A DNA stretch of 64,000 bases from Branchiostoma floridae (taxonomy: Eukaryota > Chordata > Leptocardii > Amphioxiformes > Branchiostomatidae), in NCBI RefSeq assembly GCF_000003815.2, contig NC_049986.1, forward strand, positions 20,804,611 to 20,868,610, given 5' to 3'. Within the stretch, counting starts at the first letter, position 1. Each line of letters begins with the position of its first letter. Of the stretch, positions 10,544-39,130 are shown in pieces. A program made the translations under genes and the position numbers. Below the pieces are notes generated by a model that searched no databases, was not told the DNA's origin, and saw only the letters and a program-made list of their open reading frames with translations.

Positions 10544-13500
10544 GTACGTCAACGTGTTTTACTCTCTGTCTCGCCCTCTCTTAATACCTTATCGTCTTTT
10601 TTTCATATCCAAACAGTACATCGTATAGCTTTTACATATTTCCATTTTTTGCTAGCATTGTAGTTTACTAAAGATCTGTACGTTTGTGTTGCATGAGAGA
10701 AGTCAGAGTGTATCTATGAGAAATGTTTTGACGATACAGGCATATCTTGTTTCCGTGGTTTACAACTCCTCATCGTTGCGGCCAATTCTGCCCTTATGCT
10801 GTTGACTCTGGAGGGTCCGTGTTATATACTTTCCCATTGAAACCGCGCTATTTTTCCGGGTGATATTTCCTCCTACTCGACACAGAAAAAATACCGCTTC
10901 CACTCTGCTAGGGCAGTATCCCCGTCCTCCTGACCTGGGGATATATGTGTAGTATCGATCTCGGACCGCTCTAGCTTTTAGCCGGCAAATTGCGGGTATT
11001 CCCAGGGCACTTGTTGGGCGCTGTGCCACGGGACCGCGGGACTGACGGCCGGTCAGTCCCTCACTTCTGCCGCGCACGGAGGTCTTCTAGACAGCTTCTT
11101 TACGGCTAGGTGTTCTTAAAGGCGCAAGAGTCAATGGCAGGATTTTTAGCGTAAATCGCTGCTCTCTAGTCCCATAAAAGGTTCAATCTGATGTAGATGT
11201 GCATGTCGTCAGATGTTTTTAGATTTCTATGCTACTGTGCGATTAAGACATCGTAGACGAACACCTTACAACTGTCTTTATTTCTTAAGACGAGGAAAGT
11301 CCTGCAAGCTTTGTGTGATTCGGTCGTTAAGAAATAAATCTCCACAGCACAGGCTTTTAGGCACTAGGTGCACCAGTTTGCTGACCGGCGATTTTTTAAA
11401 GAGGTAATCTTTTATATCCTAATTTTTTGTCATATTGTCGATGTTGATGTTTGATAGTTTTTGATTCTGAATCAGTTCCAAAAAGCTGTTATCATGTACA
11501 GAGATGGTCTAATTGTTTGTCAGAACAAAGCTCGCACAGAAGCCGGTCCGAACACCCCCGCAATGGTTCTGTCTACAAGCCGTATTTGTCTTCATTTCAC
11601 AGCTGAAGCACCGCCACTCGTGGAGCCGGGCGTCCCATCAGAGAACAACCCCGAGCAGCCGCTCAAGCCGGCAGCGGAGGATCCCGTCACCTGCCCTCGG
11701 GCCGACACGCGCGACCACCCGCCCAGGGCGCAGCCGTGGTCCGGCGACACCGCTGCCTTCGTGCCGCAACTCTCACCGACTCGTCCTACAGGTGAGATAG
11801 GTGTCAATATTTTATAAAATAGCATAGCGGTAAGGACTACTGACTAGTCCTGATTCTTAGGTGTCAGAACGCTATGGTTACCTATCCAAACATGCTGGGG
11901 TAATGTATATTCATTTCAATGAATGCAGGGCGCGTAGCGACTGAGCTATGACATGTGTAAACAAGAAGCCCCCAGCGCCCACACAAAATACAGTAGCAGC
12001 AAATTTGCACTTGCAAATATAACAGTTCCATTGAAAATTGAAATCTGAAGCTAATCTGGCGAATATTACAGCCAGCCCTGGCCGCTCGTAGGGGCTTTGA
12101 TTTACGGGTATTGATTTTTTTGTAGTCACGTATTTTTTTTTTTCTTTCTCCTCTCTCTGCTCCAGCTGTGATGGAGACGGTCCCCGGCAGCACGCTGAGC
12201 TGCGTACGGGACATGAGCGCGGCCTGGCCGTACGGCTTTCCCAGGCTCTTCGGTGATGGAGACCTGGTCCGTCCGACGCCGTCCCCGTTCTTAGACCGGT
12301 CCATCTTCCGGCCCGACTTTCCCCTCTCCTCCCACCACCACCGACACAGCGCCACCCTCAACCTCGGCGACGTTAACAGACAGAGTGCCTTCAAGAGGTA
12401 CGATCTGCTGAAGCTAGAGACGACCCTGGCCTCCCCACCCCCGGGAGGCTACCCTTCCCCCACCTCCCACTCCGAGTACGTGGACGGGCGGCTGGACCAG
12501 CCGGCGGGCGGGCGGGAGGACGCCGAGGCCCCACCGGAGAAGCAGAAGCGCCCGACGGTGCTGACGGGGTCGTTCTCGTGCGTGAAGTGTAAGAAGGTGT
12601 TCAGCACGCCGCACGGACTGGAGGTGCACGTCAGGAGATCGCACTCAGGCAAGAGGCCGTTCGCTTGTGAGGTAAGAACATTTTCAATTTTTTCCTACTC
12701 TCAAAAATTACGCAGATTACAATGTTTTCACTCAGTGAAATGGTGTTGAAAAACCGTAGATACGTATACGTACATGTACATTTAACTTACTGTAACGCTT
12801 GCCAGGTAAGAAGCTTTTTCACTTTTTTCCTACTCAATCAAAGACTAAAAAATCGTAGACGCAAAACACAGTGAATGATGATGGTGATAAAAAAAATCGT
12901 AGACTTACTGTAACGCTTGCGAGGCAGGAAGCTTTTCACCTTTTTCCTACTCTGAAAAATCGAAGACGCAGAACACAGTGAATGGTGATCGTAGACATGT
13001 AACTTATTGTAACGCTTGTGAGGTAAAGAACCTGTCACTGGTGTTCTGCCTTAATCACAATCATGTAACTTACCGTAACGTTGCTTTATGATAAATATAA
13101 TACCTTTATAACGTTAGCTATTTCCGAAAACATTTGGATATATGCATATGCGGCCCGGTCGACTATTAAGCCCCAAACCGCGTAAAATTGTGTCACACAG
13201 GCTAGATTTTAAATCTAGGTCCCTTTGAATGCGAGGTAAGCAACGTTCCACTGTTCCACCTTAGATATCGTCATGTAACCCATAAGTAATTCCTATATAG
13301 CTACTTCTGAGAACCGTTTGGATATGCGGGTCGCCTAACTATACCCAAGATGGGGCCATTTAGATTGCGTCACACAGCTGGTTTTTAAATCTTGGTCCCT
13401 TTAAATCTGGAGGGACAGAAGAAAGGAAGAAATCTTAAAGCAAAACGTTCCTCTGACTGCTGAAATTGAAACAAAGCTAAAGATATAGTAATTCAAAAGA

Positions 13501-16500
13501 GATGGATTAAGCGAGGTACGGTCTTTTACATGTTACATGAAGTATATTTGCGACTAATGACAAATCACACTGTCGGGTTATCACTTCCCATCAGCACGGT
13601 GTATTTTGCAATGTGAGCAATGATTTCCTAAATTTAGAATGTCCATATTGTTTGAGGGCAAACATGTTGTGCAGAGTGGTCGGATCGTCTAGCGCGATAA
13701 CTCTCTAAATCTAAAATCAAGCCTCCGATAGTGCCCAAACTCCGGACACGAGACAGCTGTAAACAGTTATTGTCCGATGTTAAGAGTCCTTATACCCCTG
13801 TCACATTATCCACGATCTTCGGGCGTATCGATGGAAGATTAATATTGGCCATATTTAAATTTTAAGATTGACAGAGGGTAACGCGTATTTTTCACCTGAA
13901 AACTGTCCCCGCCACATATAAGGCATACTTTGTACCTTGTACGATTGTTGTGTAATAAAGTTATTTTTGTGAGCGAGGCTCGGGCGATTGCCACAGACTC
14001 GTCGTCTGATCGATTTTCGCCAAATGTGACAACACAGCACTCCGTGGCTTAATAGCCGAGTCCTCTGTAAATAAACTCTAGGCCCATTCGACCACAGCGA
14101 AGCCTTCTCTCGAGACTAGCACTAGCGTACGACATTCTGACGCACGTTGCGGCTCAGGTGAGCAAACACCTGCCATACCGGTACCTGTGCGTCTGCCGCG
14201 TGACGTTATCGCCGGACGCTGCCGCCGACCTGTCCCCGGCCGCACGGCTCCGCAGCTGACGACTTTCCCGCGAACCCTGATACCTGAGCGGCGGCGTGGC
14301 TCGGTCGTCCGTAAACAACTGACTGGTGTAGGGAATAGTTTCAGACCGCTCAAGGTTGTACAGCAGCTGAACAGCACCATTATTGTTTCGTTGTTTAAAC
14401 CCTTTGTCCAAAAAAACAACAACAACCAGAACAGCAAAAAGTATAGTTCCATATAAAAAAGTATAGTATTACCATCGTCCGTAAACAACTAGTGTAGGAA
14501 ATTGTTTCAGACTGCTTAAGGTTGTTTCATTGTTGTACCTTCTACCCTTAAACAGTTGAAGCCTTTATCTAAAGAACATAAAACAAGTAAAAGTATATTT
14601 CTAGTACCAGGAGGTTAACTGGTCATTATAATTGGATGTTGCCTGTCAAGAACTGGTGTAGGGAATAGTTTTAGACCACTCAAGGTTGTATAGCAGCTGA
14701 GCGGTACCGTCATTGTTTCATTGTTGTAGCCTTGTACCTTTAAATTTTAAAGCCTTTGTCTGAAGAAAGCAAGTAAAAGTATATTTCTAGTATCAGGATG
14801 TTAACTGCAATGGTAATTATTACATCATCAATTTTGAGATTTTAAGAAGGTTGCCAGTTTTAGTGATGAGACCGACCATAGAGCAGAATTTGACGAGACA
14901 CACAGAAAGCATTGTTGGTCTTTTGGCAGTTGTGAAAACTTTCAGATGTAGGTTTTTACCGTTTTACCCTACATGTGACTACCTTAATTTAAGAATTTTG
15001 AAGCTTATTTCAAATTTGAACGCTTACGCCATTGAATATCACAATATCAATAACAGATTAGAACTAGTCAGAATTTGGACTAAAAGCCATATAATATCCA
15101 TAGCAGTTTATATCAGTATCTACAGTACATCATTTTAACGCCATATGAAGTGCCCAGTCTGTCATGATAATGATCCTGTTCGCCACAAAGAAAAGAACCA
15201 CCCGCGTGTCCATGAGATAGATTTGTCATAACATTACAGCGGTCGGTTTGTGTCGTCGGTTGCTCCCTCGGGACCCATTATCAAACTGTATATCTTGTTG
15301 ACACAAAAAGCTACCCATGTCATCGCAATACGTAAAAAACACCTGAAATTGCAGTAGGCAAGCATATTTTTCACCTTAAGCATAGTTCTGTTTTCGATGG
15401 CGTTGTTGCGATTTCTAATTTCTACCATACGTTACAAGGACCTGGTACAACAACGTTTTCCCTTTGTATATCTTGTTGACACAAGAAGCTGCCCATGTCA
15501 TCACGATACGTAAAAATCATCTAACATTTTCAAATTTGCAGTAGGCAAGCATTTTCACCTTTAGCATAATTCTATTTTCGATGGCGTTGTTGTGATTCTA
15601 ATTTCTACCATACGTTACAAGGACCTGGTACAACAACGTTTTCCCTTTGTATATCTTGTTGACACTAAAAGCTGCCCATGTCATCACGATACGTAAAAAA
15701 ACACCGAAAATTTTCAAATTTACGGTATGCAAGCATTTTTACCTTCTATTTTTGATGGCGTTGTTGTGAACGTGTGATTCTAATTTCTACTCCACGTTAC
15801 AAGTACCTGGTACAACAGCGTTCTTCTTTTGTTGTACTCCGCGTATCTTCCTTGATCTATGATTTGCCGTCTGAATAGTTTCTCGCTCATTTTTTGTCCA
15901 ATCCATTCTCATTATTTATTCAACAGTTGGCCTCTTCAGCTATTCATTAACAGGTTCACATGGCATGTTTCATTTCATTGAGAGCAGGGGAGGAATTTGG
16001 GACATTATGTTCTGCAGATGAAGCTGATAGGGACCATGTCAACATAACGATAAAAAGAAAATATAACCCAAAAAATAACCACTACCAAAGGGTACAGACA
16101 TATTATAGAGAGTTGCATTAGCTAATATATTAGAATATATACATGTAATGCTATATTATCAAAAGTATATATCACTATACAAATTTGTATCAACATACAT
16201 GTAGAGGCAATGACAGATACATGAAAGCTTGAAATGCCGAGGTAACAAAGAAGCTGAATGACTCTATTGGTCCCTCGTGCCCTCACTTAAGAATTCTCCC
16301 AACATTTTCTGTCTTTGTTTATAACTCTCTTGGAGTGCAACAAGACGTTCTGACAGCTTGTTAGTTTTACAATTTCTTAAAACTTTTCTTGTAGATATAC
16401 TTCCGTGTGTTCATAGTTATTTAACGCTTATTCCTTTAATAGTGCGTCAAGATGTTCCGGCACGCCGTCAGTTAGACCTTTCCCTAATGCCGTTCTTGTA

Positions 16501-19500
16501 TATGTCTTGTACATTTATCCGTTTGTTGACGGTTTCAAGGCTATGGAGGGTAGGATGGAGGGAGGGAGAGAGTCATGTTCATCCATGCAACCAGCACGAC
16601 CGGATGAGGATGATTATGTATACTTGTACACTTGTATACCGTTTGTCCACAGTACATTAATGTTTCTTCCTCCAGGTGTGCGACAAGACGTCTTACACAG
16701 CTAGTTAGACCTTCTTAATGCTGTTCTCATATACTTGTACAGCTACCGGTTTGTTCACCGTTTCTTTAACGTTTCTTCCTGCAGGTGTGCGACAAGACGT
16801 TCGGGCACGCGGTGAGTCTGGACCAGCACCGGTCCGTCCACACCACGGAGCGGACCTTCCAGTGTAAGCAGTGCGGGAAGTGCTTCAAACGGTCCTCCAC
16901 CTTGTCAACCCACCTGCTTATCCACTCAGACACCCGCCCATACCCTTGCCAGTACTGCGGCAAGAGGTTCCACCAGAAATCTGATATGAAGAAACACACC
17001 TTCATACATACAGGTGAGTTGTTGTCATCTATCACTCATTCATTCATACACTCAATCACTCACTCACTCCAACACCCGCCCCACCCCTGCCAGTACTGCG
17101 GCAAGAGGTTCCACCAGAAATCTGACATGAAGAAACACACCTTCATACATACAGGTGAGCTTCTGTTATCATTCATTCATTCATTCACTCACTCACTCAT
17201 TCATTCACTCCGACACCCACCCCTACCCCTGCCAGTACTGCGGCAAGAGGTTCCACCAGAAATCTGATATGAAGAAACACACCTTCATACATACAGGTGA
17301 GCTGCCTGGTGTTATCTAACACTCATTCATTCACTCACTAATTCATTCGTTCGTTCATTCATTCATTGATTCACTCACTCACTCACTCACTCACTCACTC
17401 ACTCACTCACTCACTCACTCACTCACTCACTCACTCACTCACTCACTCACTCACTCACTCACCCGATTATTGATAACTAAAATTCATTCTATCACATTTG
17501 TTCTCTTCTTCATGCATTTTCTGTCTTTCTTTGCACACATATGCCCTCCTTCCTTAATATTTTGAGCCAAAATGCCTTTAGATGAAGCCGTTGAAAGGTG
17601 ATATCAGGACAAACTCTACAACAGTCTATCAGTTACCAAGTGGGTGCTAAGCGTTCCCGTCCCTTTGTCTGCGCGCGGACCGCCTGTGTGCGATAGCTTG
17701 TTTGTTGATACTTGTCACTCAGCACGTGTGCGTACGGTACACCCCACACACACGCTGCAGGTGATGAGTGAGAAACGATAAAACCTTTGTTGTACCAGGG
17801 TAAACAAATGAACTAAACGTACAAACCGAAGTGACCAAAATAACAGTATCAAGCAAATTTGCGGAGGGGAAAACAATTGAATAAAACAGTGATATCCGTC
17901 CCAACAGGACCTGCTTTTTTTTCTTACTCACTCTCCTTCCATGCTGTTGTACGTAGTTCAGATAAACCCTGTAAATTATAGTTAATTGCTCAATCTTATG
18001 AGTTAAAAGTACTTGGGGTGACATTGAATATGTTCTTTCAAGTTCTTACTGAAACCTGTTTAAAGGCAAACGCTTTGTAACCTGAACCTAGATTAACATG
18101 TTTCCATGTTGTAACCAAATGTTTCCGCGGCTCCCTATAAATGTTCGCACCTGCTGACAGCATACCTGTCATACCTGTGCCGTGTACTCTCGTCACGGAG
18201 AAACAGGACCTCAGATCGTCACACCTGATAACCAAGGGTCCTTCCCGAGTCGTCCTTGTGCCTTAAAGGTGCACCTGTCGTGTATGTCTCAGGCGTACGA
18301 GATCCTCAGACTTAAACTTAAAGATCTAAATTCATATTTTAAAACTCGGTTGCCAAGGCCAGGTCAGTTAAACCTTGCATAACGGATTTCTAAAGACGCA
18401 AATAGTTTAGTTGACATGATCCTGATTTACTTTTCTTTCATCTTCCTACCATCAAGATGGAGGTATAGTTTTGCGAAGGAGCTTTCATCAAGAAAGTCCC
18501 TTAATTGGTCCTGCTGCTTTGCACGCTGCTTGTTCGGTGCTATAGCTCCAGCAGGATTCGAGTGATTGCGATGATGTTTGGTACGTGGGTTGACCCTACT
18601 GTCAGGTTCGATTTAGGGCATCCTGATGGCCGACTTAGGTGCTGCAGCAGGACCTCCTGTTTTAGTGTCTTTGGCCACAGACATGCTGTGGTCTTGATTT
18701 TTTGGTGTCAGGTAAAGTTGGACATAATGAATACGTGTTGCAGGTGTGGCCTTCTTACCAGTTTGTTTGATCATTTCTTTGTTTCTAAGCACGTTTCTCA
18801 TTTTCCAAACTTGTTCATGCTAACGGTGCGAGTCCAAGGACATAGCCAATACTCAACTGTCACCAGAAACTCACTGAGAGATAGTTCTTGTTTCCCCTCC
18901 CCATTGTAGCATGCGGTTTTTGGCATGCTTCATGTCAAGTACAAACATAAACACCAGGTGATCAGGTCTCTAAACAGCACGGTCTGTAGGCACAAAGTCA
19001 GTCCCAGCCTTCAAGAAAAATACTGGTATACCTTCTTCGGGGAGGAAGACTAGCCCGTACCAGACTCACTACGCTGGCTACTATATGGATAATTTTTTGC
19101 CAGGGGAGATTTGCTACCAGAAGAGTTGGCCGGCCGCGCAGGGGAAACATTTACCTCTTAGCATGGAGGGACTCCTTTGGCCAATTTCCCGATTTTTTTG
19201 GGCTAAATTCTACGATCCCCGTATTCTTGTAGGAAGGCCTGGTGGAAACTAAAGGAAAACATTCAGACCTATAGAACCCCGGTCTTCACCCTTGCTGTAA
19301 TAACGTCATGTACTTCGTATCCTCCAAATGATTGATCAGTCTTTTCTTAAACTTCTTAACATTTTTTTAGCATCAACTGCAAGCTGTGGTAAAGAATTCA
19401 AGTCTTTCACAGTGATGTCACAAAACTACTGACCTCTAATTCGGTTCTTCTTTACGATGTAGGGATCTAGTTCATTTTTCGTGATTTATGTCCGATTCTG

Positions 19501-22500
19501 GAATATTTAGCACTTAATACAATGACATGGTGTCCTTAGAAATACAATACAACGAGAGAGTATCAAATACTCGCAAAAAGGTGGACAACACTGAGAGTGA
19601 GCCGCATCCTTACATCTGCTCGGAGCTAAGATTGTCCCGCTCGCTCGCGAGTCAGCCTCAGCAGTGATTGAAGAAGCCCCGCGGCGAAAATTGCTTCAAA
19701 TTGCCGACAATTTGGGCTGGTTGAGATGTCCCAGTTCGACAAGATAGTCACACATTTCAGACGTCACGTCGCTAGAAAATAGAATAACAAATTCGTAGCC
19801 TTGATGGAATGTGGAAACACAGTCATAGGTGTCAGCCAAAAGCAAGGAAAAATGTGTAAGGGCATGTCTTTCTTGTAGTTCTGATACTGTTTCTTAGTTT
19901 TCTCAATGGCCAGATTTATAGGATATTTGAAGATATGTGGAGGAATGTGTCGGAGTTGCGTGCGAGAGTTTCATCAAGGTCTGACCGGTGTGTACCGTTC
20001 TGATGAATCAGCTTCAATTACATGGGCAGAGCGAGCGATGGGGGCACTCTTTTGCACAAGCAGCCACATGACGCTGTTGCTTAGGGAACCTCTCTCTCAG
20101 TCTCTCTCTCTCTCTCTTTTCTCTCTCACTTAGTCTATCTCACTTTTCTCTCTCTCTTTCTCTCTCTTGTTCTGATGTGTAACCTCCGGTCGGACTTGAC
20201 CACCCTTAATAACATCTTCTTGGAGAAAGGTCTTTGGTGCTGACTAAATAAATCCCGGATGAACTTTGCTGTCCCTCCCGGCCACACTGGAGTGTATCCT
20301 AGCCTCCACCAGGCTTTCCTACGATGTTCGGGGATCGTAGAATTCAGCAAAACCAAACCCGGGAGATTAGTCAGTCCACGTTTAGGTTATTGTTTCCCTC
20401 CTCTGGTAGCAAAACTCTAATAGCAATTTTTCTCCCTATAATAGCCAGCGTAGTCAGTGTGGCAGAGACTATGTGTAACCACCCGTGATAACACTTCTCC
20501 CCAATCAGAATTACTCTCAGCACCAAATTACCGGCAAGTACCGGGGCGGGTAATAACACGTCATGGGGCAATACTGACTTAATCACCGCCTTAAATCACG
20601 GGAAACCGGCCCTTTTATAGGGAGTTAACGGGAGGTCCTATTCTACTGCCCGTATCATCACACACAAGCTTGTGACTGAGTTATGTCTCTAATCATAGTT
20701 GATAATACATGTACAGTATCATCGATGGAGTGAATTGATAAATGAATGGATGGATGGATAGATGGACGAGTGGACGGATGAATGGATGAACGAACGAACG
20801 AATAAATCCCGGCTGCTGTAGACAGTCAAACTTATATGAGTATTGTAAGTGTTACAGTCAGTTCTTGATATGTGACGTTGTGCTTGTCAGAATTTGACAT
20901 TACATTATTGAAGCCGTCCACGGTTTGTCTTCGTGTTACCACTGGCACAGGTGGGAAACTGCCTACCCCTGAGGATTTAGATCCCTATCCTTCATGTAAA
21001 ATTATTGAGTTAATGAACTCGTGCGTTTTGTGTTACAGTTTACTTGATTCTGAAGACTTAAAAGTTTTAGATTGTACCCCTCAGGGAAGCAATTCCGTGG
21101 AAGCTTGTTTCATAGCGAATAAATGAACGAATGAATGAACAAGATACTGTTTATTCTCACGTCACCACCAATGACTGGATCCCCCTGAGCTCAAAGTGAC
21201 TACAGATTCCTGTCCTTGTGCACCATGTTAGAGTTTAACTCCATCTGTCTCTATCAGCCCGCCTGTCTCCCCTCCCAGCACAGATGTTACAGAACTACCG
21301 GAAATAATTGCCCCGCAATTAAGGGGTGGGCTCAAAACGGCCTAAAATCTATTCTCCTTACGGAGAGAAGCGATTGAATGTGATCTTTACAATCATAAAC
21401 AGTACAGAGGTTGTAATTACGGAACGGTAGGAACTCGAGTTTGTATCATCAATTTTCAATCTTCAACAAAAAAATCCGTTTTTCGTCAACGAGCAGAAAA
21501 ATCTGTTTTATGTGACCCTTTGAAACAGCCCTAGCTCTGATTCAGATCTGACGGCGAACGTCAGCTGGGGGCTTTGTTAACCGCTATTGTAACTGCAGAT
21601 ATGAACAGCTTGATGCACCATGTGTTACCTGGTCTACCTGTCGTCAGCACGTGATACAAACTAATCTTCAAGCAGATGTAGGGAGGATTCATGTTTGGTG
21701 AACAGTGGGCCGGACAAAGTAAAAGAAGTTACGATCTTTTTCTCTACTACAGCTGTATCTGTAGTATACAAGAGGAGACTACACAAGCGTTCAGGGATAG
21801 TTACGTGCCCCCGTGTCCGCAACACTTAAACCCTGCCCTCTCCTCAGATCTGCCGACCCCAAATCTCTGCTTATGTACCTATTTATATTCAAATGGCCCC
21901 GTCCATCCTGGCGGAGCTGCAAAATCAAAATCGGCGAAATTGTCGGCAATCTCCGGTTCCAACCGGCGGGTCTCCGGGGCACAATTACGCGGGAAATGAG
22001 GATGGGATACACCGAGCATGGCGGGGGAACGGTAGCCTTTAGGTCGCAGACTGTACTTCTCGGCCAACCAACTCCTCTGGTGTGTTTTCTTTTTTTTTGG
22101 CTAATTTCTACTATTTTTCCAGCGACTCGGAGAGCCTGGTATAGGCTAGGGGAACTGGGCGGGTGGGTCTAGAAAAAAAGAAACTAAGAATGCTGAGGAA
22201 AAAGAATATAACTGAGCAAGGACGTTATCGTTACTAGGGCAGATGGGAGAGACGAACGCAGGGTGACCCGCTCCATTGAACACCTTCATTGCCCTCAATT
22301 TCTTGATTGTGACCGGTGTGACAGCGATCTCGCCCCCCCGGCGATCTCGCCCCCCCGGGGGGGCGAGATCACTAGCGTTTTCGCCCCCCTTAAGCGTTTT
22401 CGCCCCCCCCCCCCCAAGAGCAGCTGGTTACTACATATTACAGGTGCGCTACCTGGTACTATACTGCACCTGGGGAGTAACGTATATGGTGTGTTACCTG

Positions 22501-25500
22501 GTACCTATATGGCACCTTATTACCGTACCGTAAGATGTCCTACCTCGAAAGTCGATACTATATTGTTCGGTGCAAACATGACATTGAAATGAAAAAGACA
22601 ATTTTTGCAGTTGAGGTGGCATAAAAACAGTGCTACTGCGATCGTATAAATCAACACCGTCTATGGTACGGAATACGTCAGCTATATGTTTTCAATTTGT
22701 CACAGTGTTTTCTTTCTTGTGCTGGAAACATTTCCAAAGCACTAACAAAAACACACGTGAATAATAGTTTCTCATTATAAACACTATCTACGCGCAAGTT
22801 GATATAGCTGTTGCTAAATGCTACACAAACACTGGTAAAGTACCAGTCTTAAGAAACACGGGTAAATGCATCAGTTCCTAAATACTAGAAAAAACAGTCA
22901 TGTTGGAGGTGAAGATATCCCTTGGCCAGGTGCATATACCAAAATGTGCGTTATTCTAATTAATACCTAATATTTGCATAATTAATAAAGACATTACATA
23001 GTTCTTTTGTGGTCACTTCATGGTAGAGACTTCATATTGGAGATATATAGGTTGCTTGAGGACAGGTGAATACAATGAATTACATCTTATGTCAAGACTC
23101 AGGTATATGCAATAATGGGAATACAAGGGACCAAACCCTCCTTGTCTGAAACAAGTTCAACTATCTTATTACCATGTAATTACGTTAATATTGATACTAT
23201 GAATGGAGTTATGTATCAAACTCGTGTACTTATATCATTCTGAAACTACATTTTGTGATTTATACCAATCAACTTCTAAAATGTCATGTAAACCGTTTTT
23301 TTGGGGGGGGGGGGCGAAATCGCTAAAGGGGGGCGAGCTAGGGGGGCGAGATCACTAGCCGGGGAGGGCGAGATCGCTAGTGATTTCGCCCCGGGGGGGG
23401 CGAGATCGCTAGTGATTTCGCCCCCGGGGGGGGCGAGATCACGGGGGGGCGAGATCGCTGTCACACCGGTACAAAACTAATAGATGTAACTTTAGTTAAC
23501 CTTTATCCGCGGAGTAACCAATATCAGTTTTGATTAAAAACAATGTATTGTAGGGATAATAACGCCACAGACAGTGGTTTCAAATTGCAATATTTTCAAA
23601 GTATTGCAATTGATCTAAGTCGTGTTCATATCGTTATATACCCTGATTTTGAATACAACGGTTATAGGTTAACCCGCGCGGATAAAGGTGAAGTAACGTT
23701 ACAAAATGAACATCGTGAAAAGACGCACAAAAAGATTACATGCCGCGCATCTGCTTGGAACCTACCCCTGTAACTCCCTCCTTGACCCTTGGTTGCGGGT
23801 TTGATAGACGTTTCTGTGCATCGTTAACAGATAAACAGCTCATCTCTCTTTATCACGGGCCGAACGGCTCCCCCGGGCGGGCCAACCGGCCCATCCCGCC
23901 GACCAGCAATCAATAACCATCCGCTCTCCGCAAAATCACCCTTCCGAGAGCCAAAAATCACTAAAATCCGAATCTTTCAATCGGCCGCAATAACGGCGGG
24001 GATCTATCACAGCGGCCACAATTTAATTACGCCCATATCCGCGACATCCCCCATCAAAAGCCGGCGATAAAAGCGCGGCTTCGGGCGCGGGTTTATGTAC
24101 CGAGGCGTGTTGCTATCAGGAACGGACATTGACGGGCCCATTCCCGGCAATTAGCGGGATTGGTGGGGCAGGAGCGGCTGGGAACTTCGGCTCCGAGTAG
24201 ATGTATGGATTCAGCTTGTGTTTGTAGTCTCCATACCAGGTTCTCTTGGCCTTTTTCGGAGCAGGAACGGCTAGGCTGGGGACTTCTAATATCCAGGCAG
24301 ATTTACCAGTGGGATTGGTGGGGCAGGATCGAGCGGCTGGGAACTTTGGCTCCGAGCAGATGTATGGATTTGGCTTGTGTTTGAACGTTTTTGTTAGCCT
24401 GGGTGCCATCCGGGGACGTGTAGTAGTTCGCTTCCATGTTCGCTTCTGCACCCCGTCTGGAGAACTGCGCATTCAAACCTTAGTAATGAAGCGATTGTAT
24501 ACAGTGTATAATAAACGTCGGAGCGAACTATTATCCGGATGGTATTCAGGATACGTTTTTGTGGCATTTTGTGTGCCTTCTTGGTCTTCTAGTCCAAGTC
24601 CAAGGAGCTCGAGGTTCCCATTTAAACCTCCTTGTCTAGTCCTAGCCTCTTGTACGAGAGGAATATGCCTTGCAGGCATACAAAACGTGGCAAAGGGACA
24701 GGTAGCAACAATACAACGCCATATACGTCTACTTGGAGATTACTGAGTGGTGGACTCTGATAAAGTGATTCCATTTGGGACCGGAGTTTGACACAGTAAC
24801 GAACGATACTCACGCTAAGAACCTATCATTTGTCAGAACACTTCAAGGTACTCTCGAAGCAGAGGTTAGGCTCCGGCTGTTTTTTTGACGTTTTTATGCG
24901 TTTTTGTCGGGCTTTCTAATTTGTACCCTTTTCTTGATGCCACGAGACATCAAGAGAACGGTACAAAGTAGAAAGCCCGATACAAACCTATTAAAATGTG
25001 AAAAAAAAACGGAGCCTAACCTCTGCTTAGAGAGTAACTTCAGGGGTCATTAGCGGACTACAAAATGTCTTGCTTTTCTTAGACTAAACAAAGAGATGAG
25101 CAAAGAAAAGTTTTGGACATTTTACCCCTAAGGCTTTACGACAAAGGCGCTTAAACGGGAACAGATTCTTGACAATTTCCATATTATTTTCTGGTCTGGC
25201 GGTGGTTATTTAGAAGGCTCAAACATCCCGATAGTTATCACTGAGTGGAACCTTCCATATTTACGGGAACCTGTTAACAGAAGCGAGCACTCTGGCGGAT
25301 CACTCCCAAGCTGTCAGGAGGAACGTTTTTCCGGGAAGAAAGCCAGAATCAATGCGCGAGTGGGTGACACCATTATTTGTACACGTTGCAACCTACGTTC
25401 ACCAGACGAGTATCAATCCTGGTTACTCCTCTTAAGTTAAAAACCAAGTGTGTGTCACTTGTCTATGACCCTACATATACTTCACACACATTGACACTAC

Positions 25501-27974: not shown

Positions 27975-28194
27975 ATACCTCCCAGTCCCACAGTCCAGTC
28001 GTACCTACCGGTGCCAGATCGATACGGTATGACACCACATGAATCCACCCAAAGTGCACGGCTTTTAAGTCCTGCGTGTCGCCTGCCAGCGGACGATTGA
28101 AACGAAAATATCGTTAAGCGCGTCTCCTGAGAAATTAGACGTTCCCATTCATTAGGAGGTGGGAGTGCGAGGGTCAGGAGGGGGCGGGGCCGGG

Positions 28195-29400
28195 ACGTGT
28201 CAGATTTACCGGCGGATCGAAATCTCGGCCCGCGGCTCGGAGGGACGGGTCCGGAGGGAACAGGTGGAAGAGACAATTGGCCTAGTTTATTATGGTTGGG
28301 ACATGGAAGTCATCTCAATCCTTGGTGTACCTGTAAATAAAATACAAAAAAAACGGACAAGTTCGACAACGGATAACCTCCTTGGCAATACAGTACAATA
28401 ACAGGATAGTGCAGATTTGCCCCGGACAATTGTAGTTTAACAATAGGGTTTGAGGGTGCACAATTGACAATGTATGTAACACTGGAAGATCCAGATATAG
28501 ATGCAATTGTCTCCGTGTATGATTTTTGCCGTTTGGGACATCCAGGCCGAAGACAAAATCCAGATCCAAAACTTAAAACTGGATCTATCATGCAAGCGGA
28601 TCGAAATCTCGGCCCGCGGCTCAGAGGAGTGGGTCCGGGGGGACAGGTGCGTGCGTCTGGGATAGACAATTGTCCTAGTTAATTATGGCTGGGTTCATCT
28701 TCAATGTACGACGTGGAAGAGATACATGCAGTAGTCTATGGAGTAGATGAAAGAAAGGAAGACCAACAACTGGGTAGTGCAGATAGTTTGACCCGGACAA
28801 CTATGATTCAACAATAGGGTTTGAGGGCATACGATTGACGTTTAAGTAACACTGGGAGATCCAGAGACAATTACCATTAGCTAGCTTATAACATTTGCCG
28901 TTTGGGACATCCACGCCCAAAATAAAACCCAGACCCATAAAACTGGATCTCTCAAGCAAGCGGATCGAAATCTCGGCCGGCGGCTCGGAGGAGTGGGTCC
29001 GGGGGGAGAGGTGCGTGCGTCTGAAGAGAGACAATTGCCCTAGTTAATAATGGCTGGGACATGGGTCTCATCTTCACTGTACGTGTAGAAGAGATAGATG
29101 CAGCAGAAAAACTCTGAGAGGTGACACCAGGAGCATGACAGAGCAAAGCTCGTACCTTTAGATGTACTAGTTCCGAACAAATGCAATACAATAACGGGAT
29201 AGTACAGATGGCACTGACTGTAGCGGTAAACGTTCAGTTCAGTTCGGTTCATCCTCTGAGAGCGCACGATTGACCGTCGAACACAGGGAGATCCAGAGAC
29301 AATTGCCCTAGTTTATAATGAATGCTTGCCGCTTGGCCCAAGACAAAATCCAGACCCAAAACTTAAAACTGGATCTCTCGAAAGGTAAAACACAAAGGTG
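28195..29400. repeat. Tandem repeat, ~380-bp unit, about three copies
   Basis: GCGGATCGAAATCTCGGCC occurs at 28212, 28596 and 28970. Each is preceded by CAAAACTTAAAACTGGATCT or a relative and followed by GAGACAATTG.CCTAGTT.AT and TATGGCTGGGACATGG. The part with TTTGAGGG..CACAATTGAC and GGGAGATCCAGA is also shared, and a last partial unit reaches 29386. Large units like this are unusual next to the short minisatellites elsewhere in the window. Confidence 0.85.
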
Positions 29401-30977: not shown

Positions 30978-31205
30978 TTAGCACATACACATACACACGC
31001 TCACACACACATACACATGCAACCACAAACACACAGACACACACAGACATGCGGGCACAGACACACAAGCACAGACAACACACACACACACACACACACA
31101 GAAACGCAAGCACATACACATACACACACACAAGCACAGACAAACACACACACAAGCACACACACACACACACACAAGCACACACACACACACACACAAG
31201 CACAG
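30978..31205. repeat. CA microsatellite with interruptions
   Basis: Continuous CA-rich run with scattered GCACA and AGACA interruptions. The five overlapping frames in it are artefacts of the repeat. Confidence 0.95.
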
Positions 31206-33029
31206 ATGGAGAAAGAATGGGAGGAAACAATGAGAGAGAGAAAGAGAGTTACATCACTAAGTAAACAACACACATTATAACATTTTGGGAAATCTGGTTC
31301 ATTGATAGTCAAACACACAAAAGCGCAATGGTATCTTCTTGTTCTACGTCATATGATGAGAATTTGAATCTGGTAGTCCCTTGGGAAGACACAATTTACA
31401 GTATATCTAAAAATGTAACTGCTATGCAACAATTTTCGACTTAAAAATTATCACTAAGCAACTTCGATCTTAACACCATGTCGAGGCACTGTGCAGGTTA
31501 TAGTTTGGAAACTTTATAACGTCTGTCATTTTGTCATAGACAAGGTTGCTGAGCAAAGCAAAATTTGCTCTATTTATATCCTAACAATTACTTTTACGAT
31601 ATGATGAGTTCCCTACATTAATTTTTTTTCATCAACATTTTATGGGTGCAAATCATAAAAAAATCTGTATGACTTTAAGCTAATTTATAGAATTATTTTA
31701 TATGAGATACAACACTTTGCCCATGTTTCATTTTCATATTACCATTTCACCATTAATGTCTCTTTTTTTCACCATTTAATGAATGCACACTATGACAACC
31801 AGTGAGACTTAGAACCAAAGTACAGAATTAGTTTAAATGGTGAACACAACTTTGCCAACTGCAAACTTGGTTCCCATTATGCCCTCTTTCATATTTTTAC
31901 CATTTCACCATTAAATGAAATTCAATGCACATCATGTTAAATTTTCAAACTGCAGTATGGCATTAGTTTAACATCCATTGGCATAATACCGGTCGGTTTA
32001 CTGCAATTTCTCAAGCAATGCTAATTTGGCAAATGATCAACGCATCATTTTCTCCAGTTACATGTTGCTGTTACAGCTTACCTTTGCCACTTCTTCTGTG
32101 TAAATTATTTTGTCTCTCTGGTCCTGCTAAAAACATAATATCGTAATTAGAACACACCGCGGAATTGCACGGAGAACGGGCGCGTGGTTGGAAGGGGGTG
32201 CACTATACCGGTCGAACGAAACACGGCACAATTAACTGCCGCTATGTACCTTTATACATCCTCTGTTGTTCCTTTCTTTCCTGTTAGTAGTTGCACAAAA
32301 CAAAAATCTGCATGAGCATACAAAAAGTCATGAGAAAATGGGCGTATACTGACAAGAATTTTCATTTAATTTTGGTCCGTCACAACCGCTATGACGTAAA
32401 ACTTTACTGCTGGCCGTAGCATTAAAAATGGCGGGAAAATGGCGGCGTACGTTCAATTTGACCCATTCAGCCGTAGATCCGGGCGATAATGCAACGGTTC
32501 CTCACACTTTTACACGAGTTGTAGGTCACCAAAAGAAATTCAAGATTGCTGTTGAATCATGCTTGTCTTGTGCCGTGAGCACATGTGATTATTATCTACA
32601 AATCTGGCGATGAACGTGACAGTGTGTTTGTCCCACGACGAGCTCGCCTGCCCCGAAAATGACCTGAAAACTTTTGGCCTTGTTGTCTTCGAATGCATTG
32701 TTATCGATGCTTTGTAAATTATGTATTGGACACCTAGATGTCTGAAGTGTGCATACCTCAGAAATAACTATTGTTGCATGTGTAGATCTCTTTAAGTTCC
32801 ACTATTTTTAATCGACCGGTATAAGGCTTATGACCGGTATTATGCCAATGCATGTTATATGGTGAGCACAACTTTCCCATGAACTTTTCATACCCCAAAT
32901 AGCAATTACTCAAGCAAATGGATATGGTTTTGGAAATGATCAGACGCTGCAGATAACAACTGTTATCTTAAGTCAGTGACTGTTTCCATGCACATTATGA
33001 TAATCTTTAAACTGAAGTACAGCATTACT
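31206..33029. repeat. CRYZ 3' flank with copies of the last exon end
   Basis: The stop-codon region of CRYZ reads on this strand TTATACGGTGAGCACAACTT followed by TGCCCATGG. Related blocks follow at about 32847-32885 (TATATGGTGAGCACAACTTT), 31840-31885 (AATGGTGAACACAACTTTGC) and 31700-31725 (ACAACACTTTGCCCATG), together with a shared CAAGCAA..GGCAAATGATCA segment at about 32008 and 32918. A pair of inverted motifs, TATACCGGTCGAA (32199) and TCGACCGGTATA (32813), suggests a MITE inserted in one copy. No gene is seen. Confidence 0.5.
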
Positions 33030-33191
33030 TTATACGGTGAGCACAACTTTGCCCATGGCAGACTTAGTCTCTATGATGTCCTTATGGGCCTCAGGAGCCT
33101 GTTCCAGGCTATACTCCCTCCCCACAACAGGGTTCAGGGTGCCCTGGGTGAAGCCTGCGTACAGGGCTGCCACTGTCTCACCGAGTTCCGT
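33030..33191 (-). CDS. CRYZ: CRYZ coding exon 8 (C-terminus)
   Basis: The acceptor GTGCCTTCCAG precedes 53 codons and a TAA. The residues [19 protein letters not shown] and [18 protein letters not shown] match the conserved C-terminal part of zeta-crystallins (helix, LNPVVG, then the AHxDII segment). The phase is 0, compatible with both versions of exon 7. Confidence 0.9.
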   Translation of the reverse strand, partial: TELGETVAALYAGFTQGTLNPVVGREYSLEQAPEAHKDIIETKSAMGKVVLTV

Positions 33192-36100
33192 CTGGAAGGC
33201 ACAAAAACAACAACATGCAAATGTAGGGTCAAGCTTTCTCTATACTGGGATGGATTGCACACACAAAACATGCAAAGGCAGACAGCAACTTTTGTCTCAC
33301 GATAGGCAACTACACAACATGATTTTATATTTGAGTGACATTTGCATACAATCCTTATGAGTTAATTAGTGACTCTGACATTCTAAACTATTTTATAGTT
33401 ATATATTGTTCTGCCACTAGTGCCAGTTCATTCTAATGACACTGAAGAAGAGTGATGGATGCCACTCGAAACGTCCGGAGGTAATTCTCTGTTTATTATC
33501 CAGTTGTAGAGATTAATTGTATTTGGATATCAGTTACGTATGCAAAAACGGAGTTCAACTTCAAGCTTTCTTTTGGAAGGTTTGACAATTACATCAGGGA
33601 AAGAAGGGGAGTATAGCATAGAACTTTCTCTCTTCGTCACCAGATTTATCCAGATGAAAGATGATGATGATGACAGCATAGATATAAATAATAAAAGCAG
33701 GATTGCCAATATGGACACTAAATCCATGAAATGCAAATTCAAATTAAAAGAAAAGCAAGCTACGGAAGGCAGCAAACGAAATCTTTGAATTTTCTTTTTC
33801 TAGTTTCTTTAGTTGTATCATTAATTTCTTGTAGGCCAGTCCATTTCAGAGTAAATGAGAAAAAAAGATAGAATTTGAATCTGATCTGAGATGTCACATG
33901 GACAAACTTGCTGCAAATGTTACTGGGAAGCATGAAGTTTTAAATACTGCTGATCTTCAATTTGGTACTCTTCTGGCCAAAACGTTTTTTTTTTAATCTG
34001 AAGAACATTTGTAGGCATTCAACTTTCTTTTCTATGACGTAAAATCGGTTCAAAGATGCATACATCTGGCAGCACTGGCTTTTATTTCATGATGAGAGTC
34101 CTTGTTTGCAACTTTCAACATGGGCTAAAGACACACAGAAACTCCCTCTCCCAGCATTAGAAAACCTTACAAATATTTCAAATATTAAGCCAGTGCTCCC
34201 CCATAAAAAACAAGCCAGCACTGCTAGAAGTCTATGATTAAGTAGCTGCACAAAGAGGAAAAAGTTGCCTTTAAAGCTAAGGGCAGTCAACATGCCGTAT
34301 GTGCAATTTGTCTGCACATTTTTTGGGAGGCCATGTCCTCGGCATATTACTGAAAACTTTCAGGCTGTACAGGGCAGGCGCGTCCACCATACTGGCACGT
34401 ACAGGGGACGAATCCGCAGCCCGACGGCACGCAAACTTTTGCCTGCACGTAACGTTCTATGGCATGTCTGTGTGCTCCAAAATCCGTCGGATTCCCTACG
34501 AGTTCGTACGGAGGCGGTACTTACCACTTATGGATCCAAAAAGATTGCCCACGTTTTGACACATAGACAGCATGTATTTGCACATACGGGGGGTTGTGCT
34601 CTTAGCTTAAGATACTAGTAAGCAAAGCATAATATACCGCATCCATATGGTACAGCATTACGCCTATGATGGAGGTTTCTTTGGTCATGGCTGCACGAGC
34701 GTTGATCTGGGTCGGTCCCCTATTGCCTACAACCTGGGTACAACGGCAGACAGACATGTACACACACTGTCTCTCATCAGCATAGCAGGCAGGGCACAGT
34801 GTCATGGGTGTGTCACGCCACAAAGGAAGTACATCAGCTGTTTTCAGAACTTTTCCTCCAAAAAGTCCAGAAGGTTCTTGTAAACTTGAATTTGAAAAGA
34901 CATAGGGCATTTTGAAAATTTACCCTCAGCCTCAGTAAAGGTAAAGATAACCAAGGAGGTTTCTCTTTAATGTCATTGATTTATATTTACCTTATAAGGA
35001 ACATACTGCCCCATGCTTTATGGCAATATTGTTCCTGTTACAATGTTTATAGCTGTGGAAGCAATTGAATTCATCACAATTATTTTCTATATCTATCAGT
35101 TTTTAGGGCTTTGATTTAGACATTAGAAACAACTGAATTTCTTTTGTGGCAGATGAAACATACACGACATCTGAGATGACCCCCATCTGCCCTTGACCTT
35201 GACTCACCTCCGTGTCCCTCCCGACACCAATTACCCAGCATTCCTTGGTCATGAACAGGCGGGGGTCAATTTCTATCCGGCCACGAGAGCCGACAACCTA
35301 CAGAACAGGGTGAGGCTTAGCTCCCTGCTTCATATGAATAACTTAGACACACTTATAACTGAGTTACTTAGTACTTCAGTTATCTAAGTTTGTTCTCTAA
35401 TGTCTACATGCAAAGAGTATGTGACTGTAAAAAAAACTACTGACTGTAGAAAAAAGGAGAACGTTTTGTGTTAATCTACCATTAAAAAAAATTCACAAGA
35501 GGGTATACGTAATGACTATCACTTACAATACAGTTCTTACATCACACTAAAGTGTGTACTGACACTATAATCTACTAAAGCAGTACTGGCTCTTGTTTCA
35601 CTGGACTGTGGTACATTGCTGCATTCTAATTTGAAAGATTTGTTTTTCAACTATAAGATTCGTTGAGTGCTCTGTTAAATCACTCCGTAGGATGATGCCA
35701 ACCTACCACAGCTCTAGTGAGACCATATCCTGTTAGGACTGTAAGGATTTTACTGCAGGAAATCATTTCTTAACAAGACAAATTCACAAAATGAAGTACA
35801 ATTTCTCTCCATATTATACACATATTATTTCATTAAGCAATTTGATGAGCTGAAACTCACCCCCACCCGCCCGTGCCTGGCCAGCAACTCCAAATCTTTC
35901 TCCAGGTTCACGTTTGCCAGCATCTCAATAATTAAGTCCACCCCTACTCCTGCTGTGGCTGCCTGTAGAACAAACAAAAAAATTAATAAACAAGTAAACA
36001 AACTAACAAACACCTCAATAATCATGTCCACTCCTTCTCTGGTTGCTCTGGTTGCCTTTACAAGGAACAAACAAACAGGTAAATGCACAAACATCCCAAT

Positions 36101-38003
36101 AATCATTTCCACTCACAAGTCCTGCTGTGGCTGCCTGTATAACAAACAAACAAACAGGTAAACAAGAAAGTACACTAACAAACATATCAATGATCAGGTC
36201 CACCCCTACCCCTGCTGTGGCTGCCTGTAGAACAAACAAACAAACAAAGTATTGGCTGCCTGGCGATAGAACTCAAATGTGTTTGTCTTAATTTCCACTA
36301 CTCAAGGATAAGTGACAGGAATCACCCATTATGTGAACATGTTTGTTTATACATGTAAGGAGGAACACATTGTCAAGCATTAGAATTTTGTATGTGGATA
36401 AAAGACAGCTGCAGTACAGTGGAATAGAGACATTTGGATCGGAGGAGCGATGACTATCTCTCATCATCATCATCATCATCATCATCTGGGCGTGCTAGTT
36501 GTGTTGGTTCAAAAGTTCACACTTTCACAAGATTTAATGTTAGACATGTTACTGACGTGTTAAAAAAAACCTGTACAAAGACTAAATTTTCTTCCATGCA
36601 CATGAACTTCTATCTTACCATAACCTTGTCATTGGAACCTCTTTCATCAGTGTACCTCTCCTCTTTGTAACTTAAGACATTTTATCAAGCTGTAAGATGT
36701 CTTTACATGACTGTGAGACATCTTACCATGATCTTGTCCATGTACCCCTCCTCCCTATGGTTGAAGACATGCGCCGCTCCGTTCTTCTTCACAAGCTCCA
36801 TCCCCTCACTGCTGCCTGCCGTTCCCATGACAACCATCCCATGAGCCTTTGCCAGCTGAACAGCAGCCAAGCCGACCTGCAATGTAGCAAATATCAACTT
36901 TAAAATGTGGAACTTCCTGGAGGAAATTTGTGCACTGACTCTTAAAAATTGTAAGAAAAGGAGCCAATTGCTCAAAGATCTCACACAAATGTGGTCAGTG
37001 ATAGCAATGTGAAGTGTCATAAGAAATTATGACTTTCAACAGAATTGTGTTCAGAATTGTGTTGCGACATTAAGGCCTTCATGTACACATGTGCGGAAAA
37101 TTGTGACATTTTTCTTATATGCCATCTATTTCAATCAGTCTTCTTGGTGGGGAGGCTGATAGAAAAAGATGGCATATAAGAAAAAGGTTATGATTTTCCC
37201 CACAAACCTCTGCTTGAAGAGTGTACACATAGTGGCTCATACACAACAAGACTCACCCCTCCACTTGCCCCATGGACCAGCACAGTCTCACCAGGCTTGC
37301 CATGGGTCCTGTGACAGACAGAGTATTGTTATCTATCAACCACCATTCACTATCAATGTAAAATAAAGAATTGATCTCACTGCTTTTCTTGACATATTTT
37401 GGATATCGTTTTCTTGTGCACTCTAACACTGTGAATGAAAAGAATTCATACTGTATGTTTACAAAAACCTTGGTAAATAGACCACAGGCCAGAATTTAAT
37501 TTTTAAACCCACTGACCATCATTATGATCCCTATATTTACATGCAGGAGTGCTTTCAGCACATTTTAGATATTCATATGGAAGATTGGGACATTTTCTGA
37601 TAAACCTCTAGGTTTTCTGATGTTATGGTTAGCTGTCAATTGAACTTGGAAGTCAGAAGATATCTATCATCCAACTTATCATACCTCCTTTAGCAAATAC
37701 AAGCTTAGATCTCAAAACTCCGAACTTATGAGTTATCAAGGAGGTGATCAAATGAACCAGCATGCCACTGGGCATTAGGCAGATCTTCTCACCTGTGAAA
37801 CAGCGCCCGGTACGCGGTCATGTACGGCACCCCGATGGCGGCGCCCTGCTGGAACGACAGCCGATCCGCCAGCCTGAAGGTCGTGTCCTCTTCCGCCACG
37901 GTGAACTCAGCATAGGCTCCTGTCACGCTGCCTCTGGTGAACACACGGTCTCCTTTCTGAAAGCAAAATCACAGTTTATTGCTATAATTAATCAAATAAT
38001 GGA

Positions 38004-38043
<40 letters not shown>

Positions 38044-39130
38044 GACTATCATTGACTCACTGATTTATAACTGTAGTACTGATCTATTCCAGTAGGGGAC
38101 TCTGCTACACTAAGTCATGCTACCCCTGGTGAAAACATGGTCTCCTGTCTGAAAGCAAAGTTGCACATTAGTACTATTACTATCATTTGGTTTCTAACTG
38201 GTAACTATCTACCTGTAGTACTGATCTATTCCAGTAGGGTGCCCTGTTGCATTGATGTTCAAGTCATGCTACCCCTGGTGAACATAAAGTCTCCTTTTTA
38301 CGGGTGGGTACCAGTACAAAACCGTTTTTTCTTTTTCTGAAAAAAAATCAGCGGGCCGGCATTTGGTGGGGGTGTAATACTGATCTATACCGATAGGTGG
38401 TGCTGGTGCACTGACCTGAAACTTGGTAGCCTCCTTGCCAACCTCCTCCACCACCCCAGCAACATCACAGCCGGGGGTCCAGGGCAGGGGTGGCTTGATG
38501 TTGTGTGTGCCACTCCGGATGTAGGTTTCCACTGGGTTCACTCCGACGGCAGAGACTTTGATCAAAACCTGCAAAAGGTTTTATATATGGTGTTGAACAT
38601 GGTGAAAGCAAAAGAGAAAATAATGCAAAAGAGAAATTCTTTCCAATAATGTACAGGGCTGCTGTCAGCTATAGTCCACCTGTATACGTGTGTGTGTGTA
38701 TGTGATAATTTGTGTGTGCGTGCGTGTTTGTGTATATTATGTTTTTCTCTTGTCTGTCTGTCAACTTTGACATGATGCTGTTCATCCATCATGTCATTCT
38801 CTTTTAAGTTTACATGTAGATAAAAAACAACAGAGATTATAAACCATGTGCAATGCCTTGTGCAATGCCTTAAGTTTGTGCTGTCAGCTTTATAATGGAA
38901 CAATAAGACTTACTTTTTTGCCCTGAGCCTTTGGGCAGGCCTTCTCCACTTTCAGTACCTCTGTCCTGCAAAACTCTCTCATTCATAAACAAACTAATAA
39001 ACAAACTCACCTGTTTGCCTTCAGCCTGTGGAACGGCGACCTCTTCGACCTTGAGAACCTCCGGCCCGCCGAACTCCCTCACAACGACGGCCCGCATGGC
39101 TCGAGCTGCAGCCCGCACAGAAGCAGACAT
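33030..39130 (-). CDS. CRYZ: Quinone oxidoreductase / zeta-crystallin, complete gene
   Basis: Minus-strand gene; exons (high to low) 39011-39130, 38416-38568, 37793-37956, 37257-37308, 36727-36876, 35861-35962, then 35208-35297 or 34638-34733, then 33030-33191. They join in frame to 330 or 332 residues (human CRYZ ~329). The N-terminus [20 protein letters not shown] and the segments [13 protein letters not shown] and [16 protein letters not shown] are typical of the zinc-free quinone reductase branch of medium-chain dehydrogenases. The nucleotide-binding motif HGASGGVG spans the exon 4/5 border (about 158-165). Expected activity: NADPH-dependent one-electron reduction of quinones in the cytosol (family knowledge). 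Zinc-ligand cysteines of alcohol dehydrogenases are absent, as expected. Several introns contain copies of neighbouring exon edges, and exon 7 exists twice. Confidence 0.92.
33437..33480 (+). repeat. Dispersed motif with hammerhead-like core
   Basis: Reads CACTGAAGAAGAGTGATGGA then TGCCACTCGAAACGTCCGG. It can fold as CTGAAGA, a GAGTG/CACTC stem, then GAAAC. This layout resembles hammerhead ribozyme cores found in Penelope-like retroelements, with A instead of U in the CUGAUGA box. Likely a retroelement tail; activity is not implied. Confidence 0.3.
33482..34637. other. CRYZ intron between exons 7b and 8
   Basis: The short frames at 33540-33788 and 34265-34618 lack domains and splice sites. 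I see no gene here. An ATGATGATG run lies at 33660-33670. Confidence 0.35.
34638..34733 (-). CDS. CRYZ: CRYZ exon 7b, alternative copy
   Basis: 96 nt, phase 0 at both ends, acceptor TTGTACCCAG, donor GCG|GTATAT (weak). It codes [20 protein letters not shown] then [12 protein letters not shown]. It is closer to the vertebrate consensus (AMxKESSIIGV) than exon 7a, and supplies about the right number of residues before exon 8. It lies 475 bp downstream of 7a. Confidence 0.7.
35208..35297 (-). CDS. CRYZ: CRYZ exon 7a, alternative copy
   Basis: 90 nt, phase 0 at both ends, acceptor CCCTGTTCTGTAG, donor GAG|GTGAGT (strong). It codes [20 protein letters not shown] then [10 protein letters not shown]. 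The first half matches the family (VVGSRGxIEI), while the end lacks the usual IIGVxL and is two residues shorter than 7b. Using both copies in one mRNA would stay in frame but duplicate a beta-strand of the fold. Confidence 0.75.
35861..35962 (-). CDS. CRYZ: CRYZ coding exon 6
   Basis: 102 nt, phase 0, coding [20 protein letters not shown] then [14 protein letters not shown]. The acceptor is TTCTACAG and the donor [26 protein letters not shown] matches the conserved V(D)[15 protein letters not shown] of zeta-crystallin. Confidence 0.92.
35998..36250 (-). repeat. Three copies of the exon 6 acceptor edge
   Basis: Upstream of exon 6, copies of its acceptor and first 45-50 coding bases lie with their first base near 36055, 36134 and 36224, about 80-93 bp apart and separated by AAACAAAC runs. 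They translate as [29 protein letters not shown] (frame lost) and [15 protein letters not shown]. The first and third are followed directly by GTTAGT, a possible donor, which would define 48-nt and 45-nt in-frame micro-exons. Confidence 0.8.
36450..36486. repeat. ATC microsatellite
   Basis: Perfect (ATC)n of about 12 units inside a CRYZ intron. Confidence 0.95.
36617..36662 (-). repeat. Copy of the exon 5 donor edge
   Basis: On the minus strand GACAAGGTTATG|GTAAGA mirrors the real GACAAGATCATG|GTAAGA of exon 5, about 110 bp away, and is preceded by a related GAGGAGAGGTACAC (real: GAGGAGGGGTACAT). It has no acceptor of its own. Confidence 0.7.
36727..36876 (-). CDS. CRYZ: CRYZ coding exon 5
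   Basis: 150 nt, phase 0. It begins [20 protein letters not shown], the glycine-rich turn and helix of the NADPH-binding Rossmann fold, and continues [20 protein letters not shown]. Acceptor ACATTGCAG, donor ATG|GTAAGA. Confidence 0.92.
37257..37308 (-). CDS. CRYZ: CRYZ coding exon 4
   Basis: A 52-nt exon coding [17 protein letters not shown]; acceptor CTGTCACAG, donor GGG|GTGAGT. It completes the arginine codon split with exon 3 and restores phase 0. Confidence 0.9.
37793..37956 (-). CDS. CRYZ: CRYZ coding exon 3
   Basis: 164 nt coding [20 protein letters not shown] then [20 protein letters not shown] and [25 protein letters not shown] and the substrate-loop segment AAIGVPYxTAYRAL are family hallmarks. 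Acceptor GCTTTCAG, donor CAG|GTGAGA. Confidence 0.93.
37990..38045. repeat. TAC microsatellite
   Basis: (TAC)n of about 12 units in the CRYZ intron just upstream of exon 3. Confidence 0.95.
38084..38310 (-). repeat. Two copies of the exon 3 acceptor edge
   Basis: Real exon 3 begins GCTTTCAG|AAAGGAGACCGTG ([12 protein letters not shown]). A copy near 38113-38166 reads GCTTTCAG|ACAGGAGACCATG, coding [12 protein letters not shown] and then a stop. A second at 38263-38310 keeps the coding part but has lost the acceptor. GATCTATTCCAGTAGGG precedes both, showing that the repeat unit is about 145 bp. Confidence 0.8.
38416..38568 (-). CDS. CRYZ: CRYZ coding exon 2
   Basis: 153 nt, phase 0, coding [20 protein letters not shown] then [20 protein letters not shown] and [11 protein letters not shown]. 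Acceptor CTTTTGCAG, donor CAG|GTCAGT. These are the conserved [10 protein letters not shown] and PxTPGxDxAGxV blocks. Confidence 0.93.
38914..38970 (-). repeat. Copy of the exon 1 donor edge
   Basis: On the minus strand this reads [16 protein letters not shown] followed by a GTAAGT donor, a diverged copy of [23 protein letters not shown] of exon 1, 97 bp into intron 1. Confidence 0.8.
39011..39130 (-). CDS. CRYZ: CRYZ coding exon 1
   Basis: 40 codons, [20 protein letters not shown] then [20 protein letters not shown], donor CAG|GTGAGT. The initiator could also be the internal MRAVVV methionine; the longer form adds a short basic, alanine-rich leader. A CAG at 39146-39148 on this strand could be the acceptor of a 5' UTR exon. 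Confidence 0.88.

Follow-up and report, generated by a model that had tools for sequence, protein, structure and literature searches.

Why do the introns of a lancelet gene contain copies of the edges of the exons beside them? The question is raised by a 64,000-nucleotide stretch of Branchiostoma floridae DNA, here called the window (G000:C8:20804611-20868610, in a genome of 513 Mb and 431 contigs). A preliminary description of this stretch claimed ten reiterations of exon edges in three genes and proposed that a common process seeds duplication at exon ends. Two issues have to be separated: (i) whether the reiterations exceed chance; and (ii) whether exon edges are copied more often than other sequence in and around the same introns.

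Repeats of this kind have been described in amphioxus. According to the excerpts available of two papers, boundary-spanning tandem repeats were termed mirages at Adh3 and occur likewise in the globin genes BflGb6 and BflGb9 (PMC3087553), with PGBD5 and TnC as further cases (PMC3902484); at BflGb6 the mirage copy number differs between haplotypes, apparently with splicing undisturbed (PMC3087553). The mention of mirages at amphioxus Adh in the preliminary description was correct. Its claim that the window extends them to several unrelated genes stands insofar as boundary-spanning duplications were found, but the same excerpts already place the kind in globins, TnC and PGBD5. Like the repeats at Adh3, BflGb6, BflGb9, TnC and PGBD5, those described here are tandem or single imperfect copies of a boundary, on the donor or the acceptor side, and often include splice dinucleotides. 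In the limited literature searched we found no genome-wide survey of amphioxus mirages or exon-edge repeats. What is new here is the loci (gfi1, CRYZ, and MCM, myosin, CCT and tRNA synthetase regions), an estimate of frequency, and a flat profile with no edge enrichment.

Exon edges reiterated in the window

Reading frames and splice sites served to position exons 3-5 of gfi1 (forward strand) and exons 1-8 of CRYZ (reverse strand). Each conceptual protein is open as far as the stop, and the CRYZ protein built with exon 7b matches human CRYZ (1yb5), with residues 6-331 aligned (E 3e-115). For 18 splice edges in nine introns, up to 90 exon bases were aligned locally to as much as 2500 bases of the adjacent intron; the null was the identical query against introns from other loci, and edge queries carried no complexity filter. 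Five of the 18 edges gave p < 1e-3, where 0.02 were expected: the donor and acceptor of gfi1 exon 4, the donor of CRYZ exon 1, and the acceptors of CRYZ exons 3 and 6. With direct alignments included, nine of the ten reiterations claimed in the preliminary description exceed chance, and the tenth, involving the donor of CRYZ exon 5, gives a weak signal.

In gfi1, the original coding copy of exon 4 (16785..17013, +) allows unbroken translation from exon 3 to exon 5. Its end and donor are repeated in an array at 16920..17465 (+), with two extra copies that show 93 and 95% identity to the original (score 82 against a null of 11.8) and that place further donors at +141 and +283; the array, also called by TRF at 16923-17352, runs into a CACT microsatellite. 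A degenerate array at 16327..16817 (+) crosses the acceptor of the same exon, which starts at 16785 (p 2e-6, exon-edge alignment). The array across the exon 3 donor (12662..13038, +; exon end at 12671) has a unit of about 10 exon bases plus the intron start. Its copy is found by direct alignment (p 1.7e-8) and missed by the exon-only query (p 0.23), because the unit holds so little exon sequence.

In CRYZ, all features lie on the reverse strand. A copy of the exon 1 end and donor was located by alignment at 38889..38975 (74% identity; p 5.5e-7 with the exon-edge query and 1.4e-5 by direct alignment). An array across the exon 3 acceptor, defined by alignment and repeat coverage, occupies 37922..38414 (p 9.5e-9, exon-edge alignment), and an array across the exon 6 acceptor, with three extra copies, occupies 35921..36246 (p 2.5e-10). 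The last coding bases, the stop and the 3′ flank of exon 8 have a copy about 1.2 kb downstream at 31785..31885 (p 1.7e-11, direct alignment). The weak case is a possible copy of the exon 5 donor at 36612..36639, which comprises 28 bases (p 0.0085 with the exon-edge query, 0.0066 by direct alignment). Exon 7, of which the whole is duplicated, is considered separately below.

The remaining case belongs to a second zinc-finger gene and lies at about 50.9-51.7 kb, beyond the interval 12672..39130 under which the preliminary description had placed it. The start of its first coding exon (original at about 50906-51059) has an upstream copy at 51598..51736 (-), with a direct-alignment score of 65 against a null of 10.7 +/- 1.3. 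By eye, the upstream copy keeps the ATG and the reading frame, the alignment gaps being 3 and 12 bases. This copy may represent an alternative first exon or what is left of a tandem paralogue.

Frequency of mirages in control genes

Control introns were obtained from a genome profile search for five domain families (CCT/TCP1, MCM, aldehyde dehydrogenase, tRNA synthetase and myosin head), which were selected on domain length and conservation rather than on repeats. The searches listed 60 + 30 + 14 + 19 + 142 profile hits; 40 regions were taken, the 145 hits in the chosen regions were used, and 134 kinesin hits were left out. Splice sites were inferred between successive profile hits. One of 66 hit pairs remained unfitted, giving 65 introns in 28 regions with 130 splice sites (28 CCT, 18 MCM, 14 myosin, 4 tRNA synthetase and 1 aldehyde dehydrogenase introns; regions L007 and L008 may be one gene). 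One MCM hit (L016, 2770-2902), a suspected copy, was excluded from the intron chain and from the hit counts. The sample is small, non-random and biased to short introns (median 469). An overlapping MCM hit had already been noticed when the search moved on to the later families, and the eight myosin regions are a dispersed subset chosen by hand from those listed.

Mirages are common in this portion of the genome, with 9 of 130 splice sites (~7%) lying inside local repeats. Exon-edge copies at p < 1e-3 were found at 8 of the 130 edges, in six introns, where 0.13 were expected. Myosin region L042 has 21 copies of a unit of about 50 bases crossing the acceptor of its first inferred intron (0-based 1674-3408, +), and MCM region L016 has both donor copies and acceptor copies. 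Scattered reports of mirages are thereby turned into a measured rate.

Among the kinesin matches, three profile hits at G000:C2:31967610-31968130 all begin at profile position 75 and lie about 150 bases apart, which makes this locus a mirage candidate.

Edges compared with intron interiors

The preliminary description had called for a comparison with shuffled exon positions, and a control of this kind was run on the 65 control introns. Repeat tracks were shifted along or around each intron and the covered splice sites were recounted. In the control, the 9 of 130 covered sites compare with 8.4 +/- 2.1 under this null (P 0.47), so that no edge excess was seen in a sample where, by our estimate of power, an enrichment of ~1.5-fold could go undetected. 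When score threshold and distance were varied in twelve combinations, control P values stayed at 0.25-0.74, again with no edge enrichment. The profile of coverage stays flat, with values of 0.08 on the splice site, 0.06-0.12 at 10-300 intronic bases and 0.20 (4/20) at 400, and drops to 0.04-0.05 inside exons at 40-85 bases. Coverage is 4/144 at the centres of exon hits, 15/288 at hit ends and 0.086 at non-hit bases.

Direct counts of copies give a similar picture. Within control introns, 29 of 365 interior 90-base segments have copies when low-complexity sequence is removed, and 83 of 607 when all are counted, against 8 of 130 edges; with subjects limited to 1300 bases the figures are 25/289 and 6/122. 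In these counts interior segments are not independent, since several can come from one array. Since constraint on the exon should favour the detection of edge copies, a control profile this flat speaks against a surplus of duplication at edges.

In the window, by contrast, there is a tendency towards edges. Of its 18 edges, 5 are covered, where 2.4 +/- 1.3 would be expected (P 0.056, with a range of 0.04-0.30 as the twelve settings are varied). Copies are also carried by 5 of the 18; among interior segments the corresponding counts are 27 of 226 with the complexity filter and 47 of 349 unfiltered. Repeat coverage stands at 0.28-0.33 on the splice site itself, falls to 0.17 at 55-100 bases, and lies at 0.28-0.40 past 125 bases. 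The two sets of five edges differ: coverage catches the gfi1 exon 3 donor and not the CRYZ exon 1 donor. The word-based coverage search misses the CRYZ exon 1 copy, treats CRYZ 7a to 8 as one intron, and was run with the zinc-finger gene outside its scope. With window and control pooled, 14 edges are covered against 10.8 +/- 2.5 expected (P 0.14).

The window excess is the best support for a process that seeds duplication at exon ends, for example through break-prone or transcription-linked events at splice sites, and the fact that 32 of 35 listed copies (up to 12 per edge) reach the junction exactly also speaks for it. The window excess weighs little, however, because the window was picked for conspicuous repeats. 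Against seeding stand the 130 splice sites of other genes, which are without enrichment and where interiors are duplicated equally often; since exon constraint eases the detection of edge copies, the true edge rate would if anything be lower. We consider seeding at exon ends improbable. The seeding proposed in the preliminary description is thus unsupported, in that the introns outside the window show edges copied no more than interiors. For this sample, that is the outcome which the preliminary description had itself named as counting against its reading, and within this sample a mechanism specific to exon ends is unneeded.

Divergence of originals and copies

In gfi1, in CRYZ and in the control regions alike, the repeat units extend across a donor or an acceptor, and the copies are imperfect and lie in the adjacent intron. 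This arrangement bears on a model of intron gain through duplication of an exonic AGGT stretch, which is cited in the excerpt of PMC3087553. That model would account for introns containing sequence from the adjoining exons, and has in common with the present cases a duplication beside splice signals. Here, however, spanning alignments show the exon edge copied along with the intron sequence that flanks it, so the intron predates the duplication. We therefore reject intron gain by internal tandem duplication and give it almost no credence for these loci.

Across the 35 listed copies, exon-part identity ranges from 0.71 to 1.00. Errors of assembly, or haplotypes stacked in tandem, might be suspected from the 93 and 95% identity of the gfi1 exon 4 copies, and an aberrantly assembled globin mirage is on record (PMC3087553, in excerpt). 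Yet seven of nine listed window copies diverge from the original by 12-29% across the exon part, and comparable repeats at PGBD5 were confirmed by resequencing (PMC3902484, in excerpt). Artefact is accordingly a very improbable explanation.

Over 13 arrays, the identity of original and copy averages ~0.88 in the exon part, ~0.81 in the nearest 20 flank bases and ~0.72 in 43 flank bases (unweighted per-array means), a contrast that is biased in that the exon part was used to find the copies and units may stop within the flank. The gradient fits one constrained and one drifting copy of the exon, compared with two drifting flanks, and so lends weak support to the claim that selection holds the original exon while the copies decay; the values are compatible with that claim. 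In the copies, splice dinucleotides are retained at a rate of 0.81 per array, where flank dinucleotides would predict 0.54 (13 arrays, without significance test). Such retention might stem from biased alignment near the junction, from copying that is recent or from a degree of maintenance.

A proposed explanation: local duplication blind to exon borders

We suggest that the pattern is explained by local duplication that is blind to exon borders, combined with selection on the outermost splice site and on the original exon. Tandem duplications ranging in size from tens of bases to a few hundred would occur throughout amphioxus genes, perhaps through slippage, unequal exchange or break repair. 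Those spanning a splice site would be tolerated because the outermost site, that is, the first donor or the last acceptor from the exon body, would still define the exon, so that the extra copies would land in the intron. Selection would then hold the original exon part while the copies drift neutrally, and duplications within exons would mostly be removed. The outcome would resemble reiteration of exon edges without any process that recognises exon ends. We place the probability of this explanation at about 0.75; the figure is held down because the two methods, when combined, pick out 6 of 18 edges in the window (and 10 of 130 in the control) and because the contrast of exon and flank is biased.

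Exons 7a and 7b of CRYZ and the spare donor of gfi1

The duplication of CRYZ exon 7 departs from the picture of an original with a decaying copy. Exon 7a (35208..35297, -; 90 nt, 30 codons) and exon 7b (34638..34733, -; 96 nt, 32 codons, aligned without gaps to human CRYZ 1yb5) each have an AG acceptor and a GT donor, both are in phase 0, and the full translation is open with either; by eye, the 7b donor GCG|GTATAT is weak. Across 25 residues their protein sequences are 56% identical (E 7.6e-5 in a tblastn search of the 64-kb window; DNA p 0.014), and 17 of 25 residues of 7a and 16 of 25 of 7b are identical to human CRYZ. Over the 25 codons they differ at 9 first, 7 second and 15 third positions (pS 0.76, pN 0.29; no formal significance test). 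Both versions thus look to be under coding constraint, and the preliminary description was wrong to count exon 7 among the decaying copies.

Judged from these features, 7a and 7b both look like used coding exons, probably as alternatives. Tandem exon duplication is known to yield mutually exclusive exons, as in Fgfr IIIb/IIIc (PMC5703972, in excerpt), and the CRYZ pair resembles these in being tandem, in the same phase and apparently constrained. Alternative use is putative in CRYZ, however, and since the lengths of the two exons are divisible by three, the reading frame leaves exclusion unenforced.

A related case is the second donor of gfi1 exon 4. Splicing at +141 would preserve an open reading frame and supply an additional C2H2 finger, whereas the third donor, at +283, is out of frame and brings in a stop. 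It might be supposed that copies in general are retained as alternative splice sites or exons, the second gfi1 donor adding a zinc finger and CRYZ 7a/7b being alternative exons. The open +141 frame, the mostly silent differences of 7a and 7b, and the retention of splice dinucleotides (0.81 against 0.54) are in keeping with this. Five further donor-copy shifts provide a wider view: three of the five (gfi1 +283, L041 and L011) are out of frame and that of L016 is in frame but has four stops, although that of L042 is in frame and open. General retention for use is an unlikely reading on this evidence.

Local duplication blind to exon borders could nonetheless provide a lasting reserve of extra splice sites and exon ends, part of which would be maintained and used, for example in a Gfi1 isoform with an extra finger or in CRYZ with 7a or 7b; we regard this as a rather doubtful possibility. 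If the rate of ~7% holds genome-wide, redundancy of splice sites would be routine in lancelet genes and would offer a testable source of new splice forms.

Other features of the window

Two further structures were seen by eye. The gfi1 intron that follows exon 4 holds, at about 22310-23475, a pair of G/C-rich termini in inverted orientation, GCGATCTCGCCCC... / ...GGGGCGAGATCGC, which stand about 1.1 kb apart and are possibly the ends of a non-autonomous terminal-inverted-repeat element. At 45571-45670, 100 N lie between inverted sequences (TAGCCTCCATAGCAGGCTCTCTGGGG and its complement), in what looks like a palindromic element whose centre is a gap or a withheld stretch.
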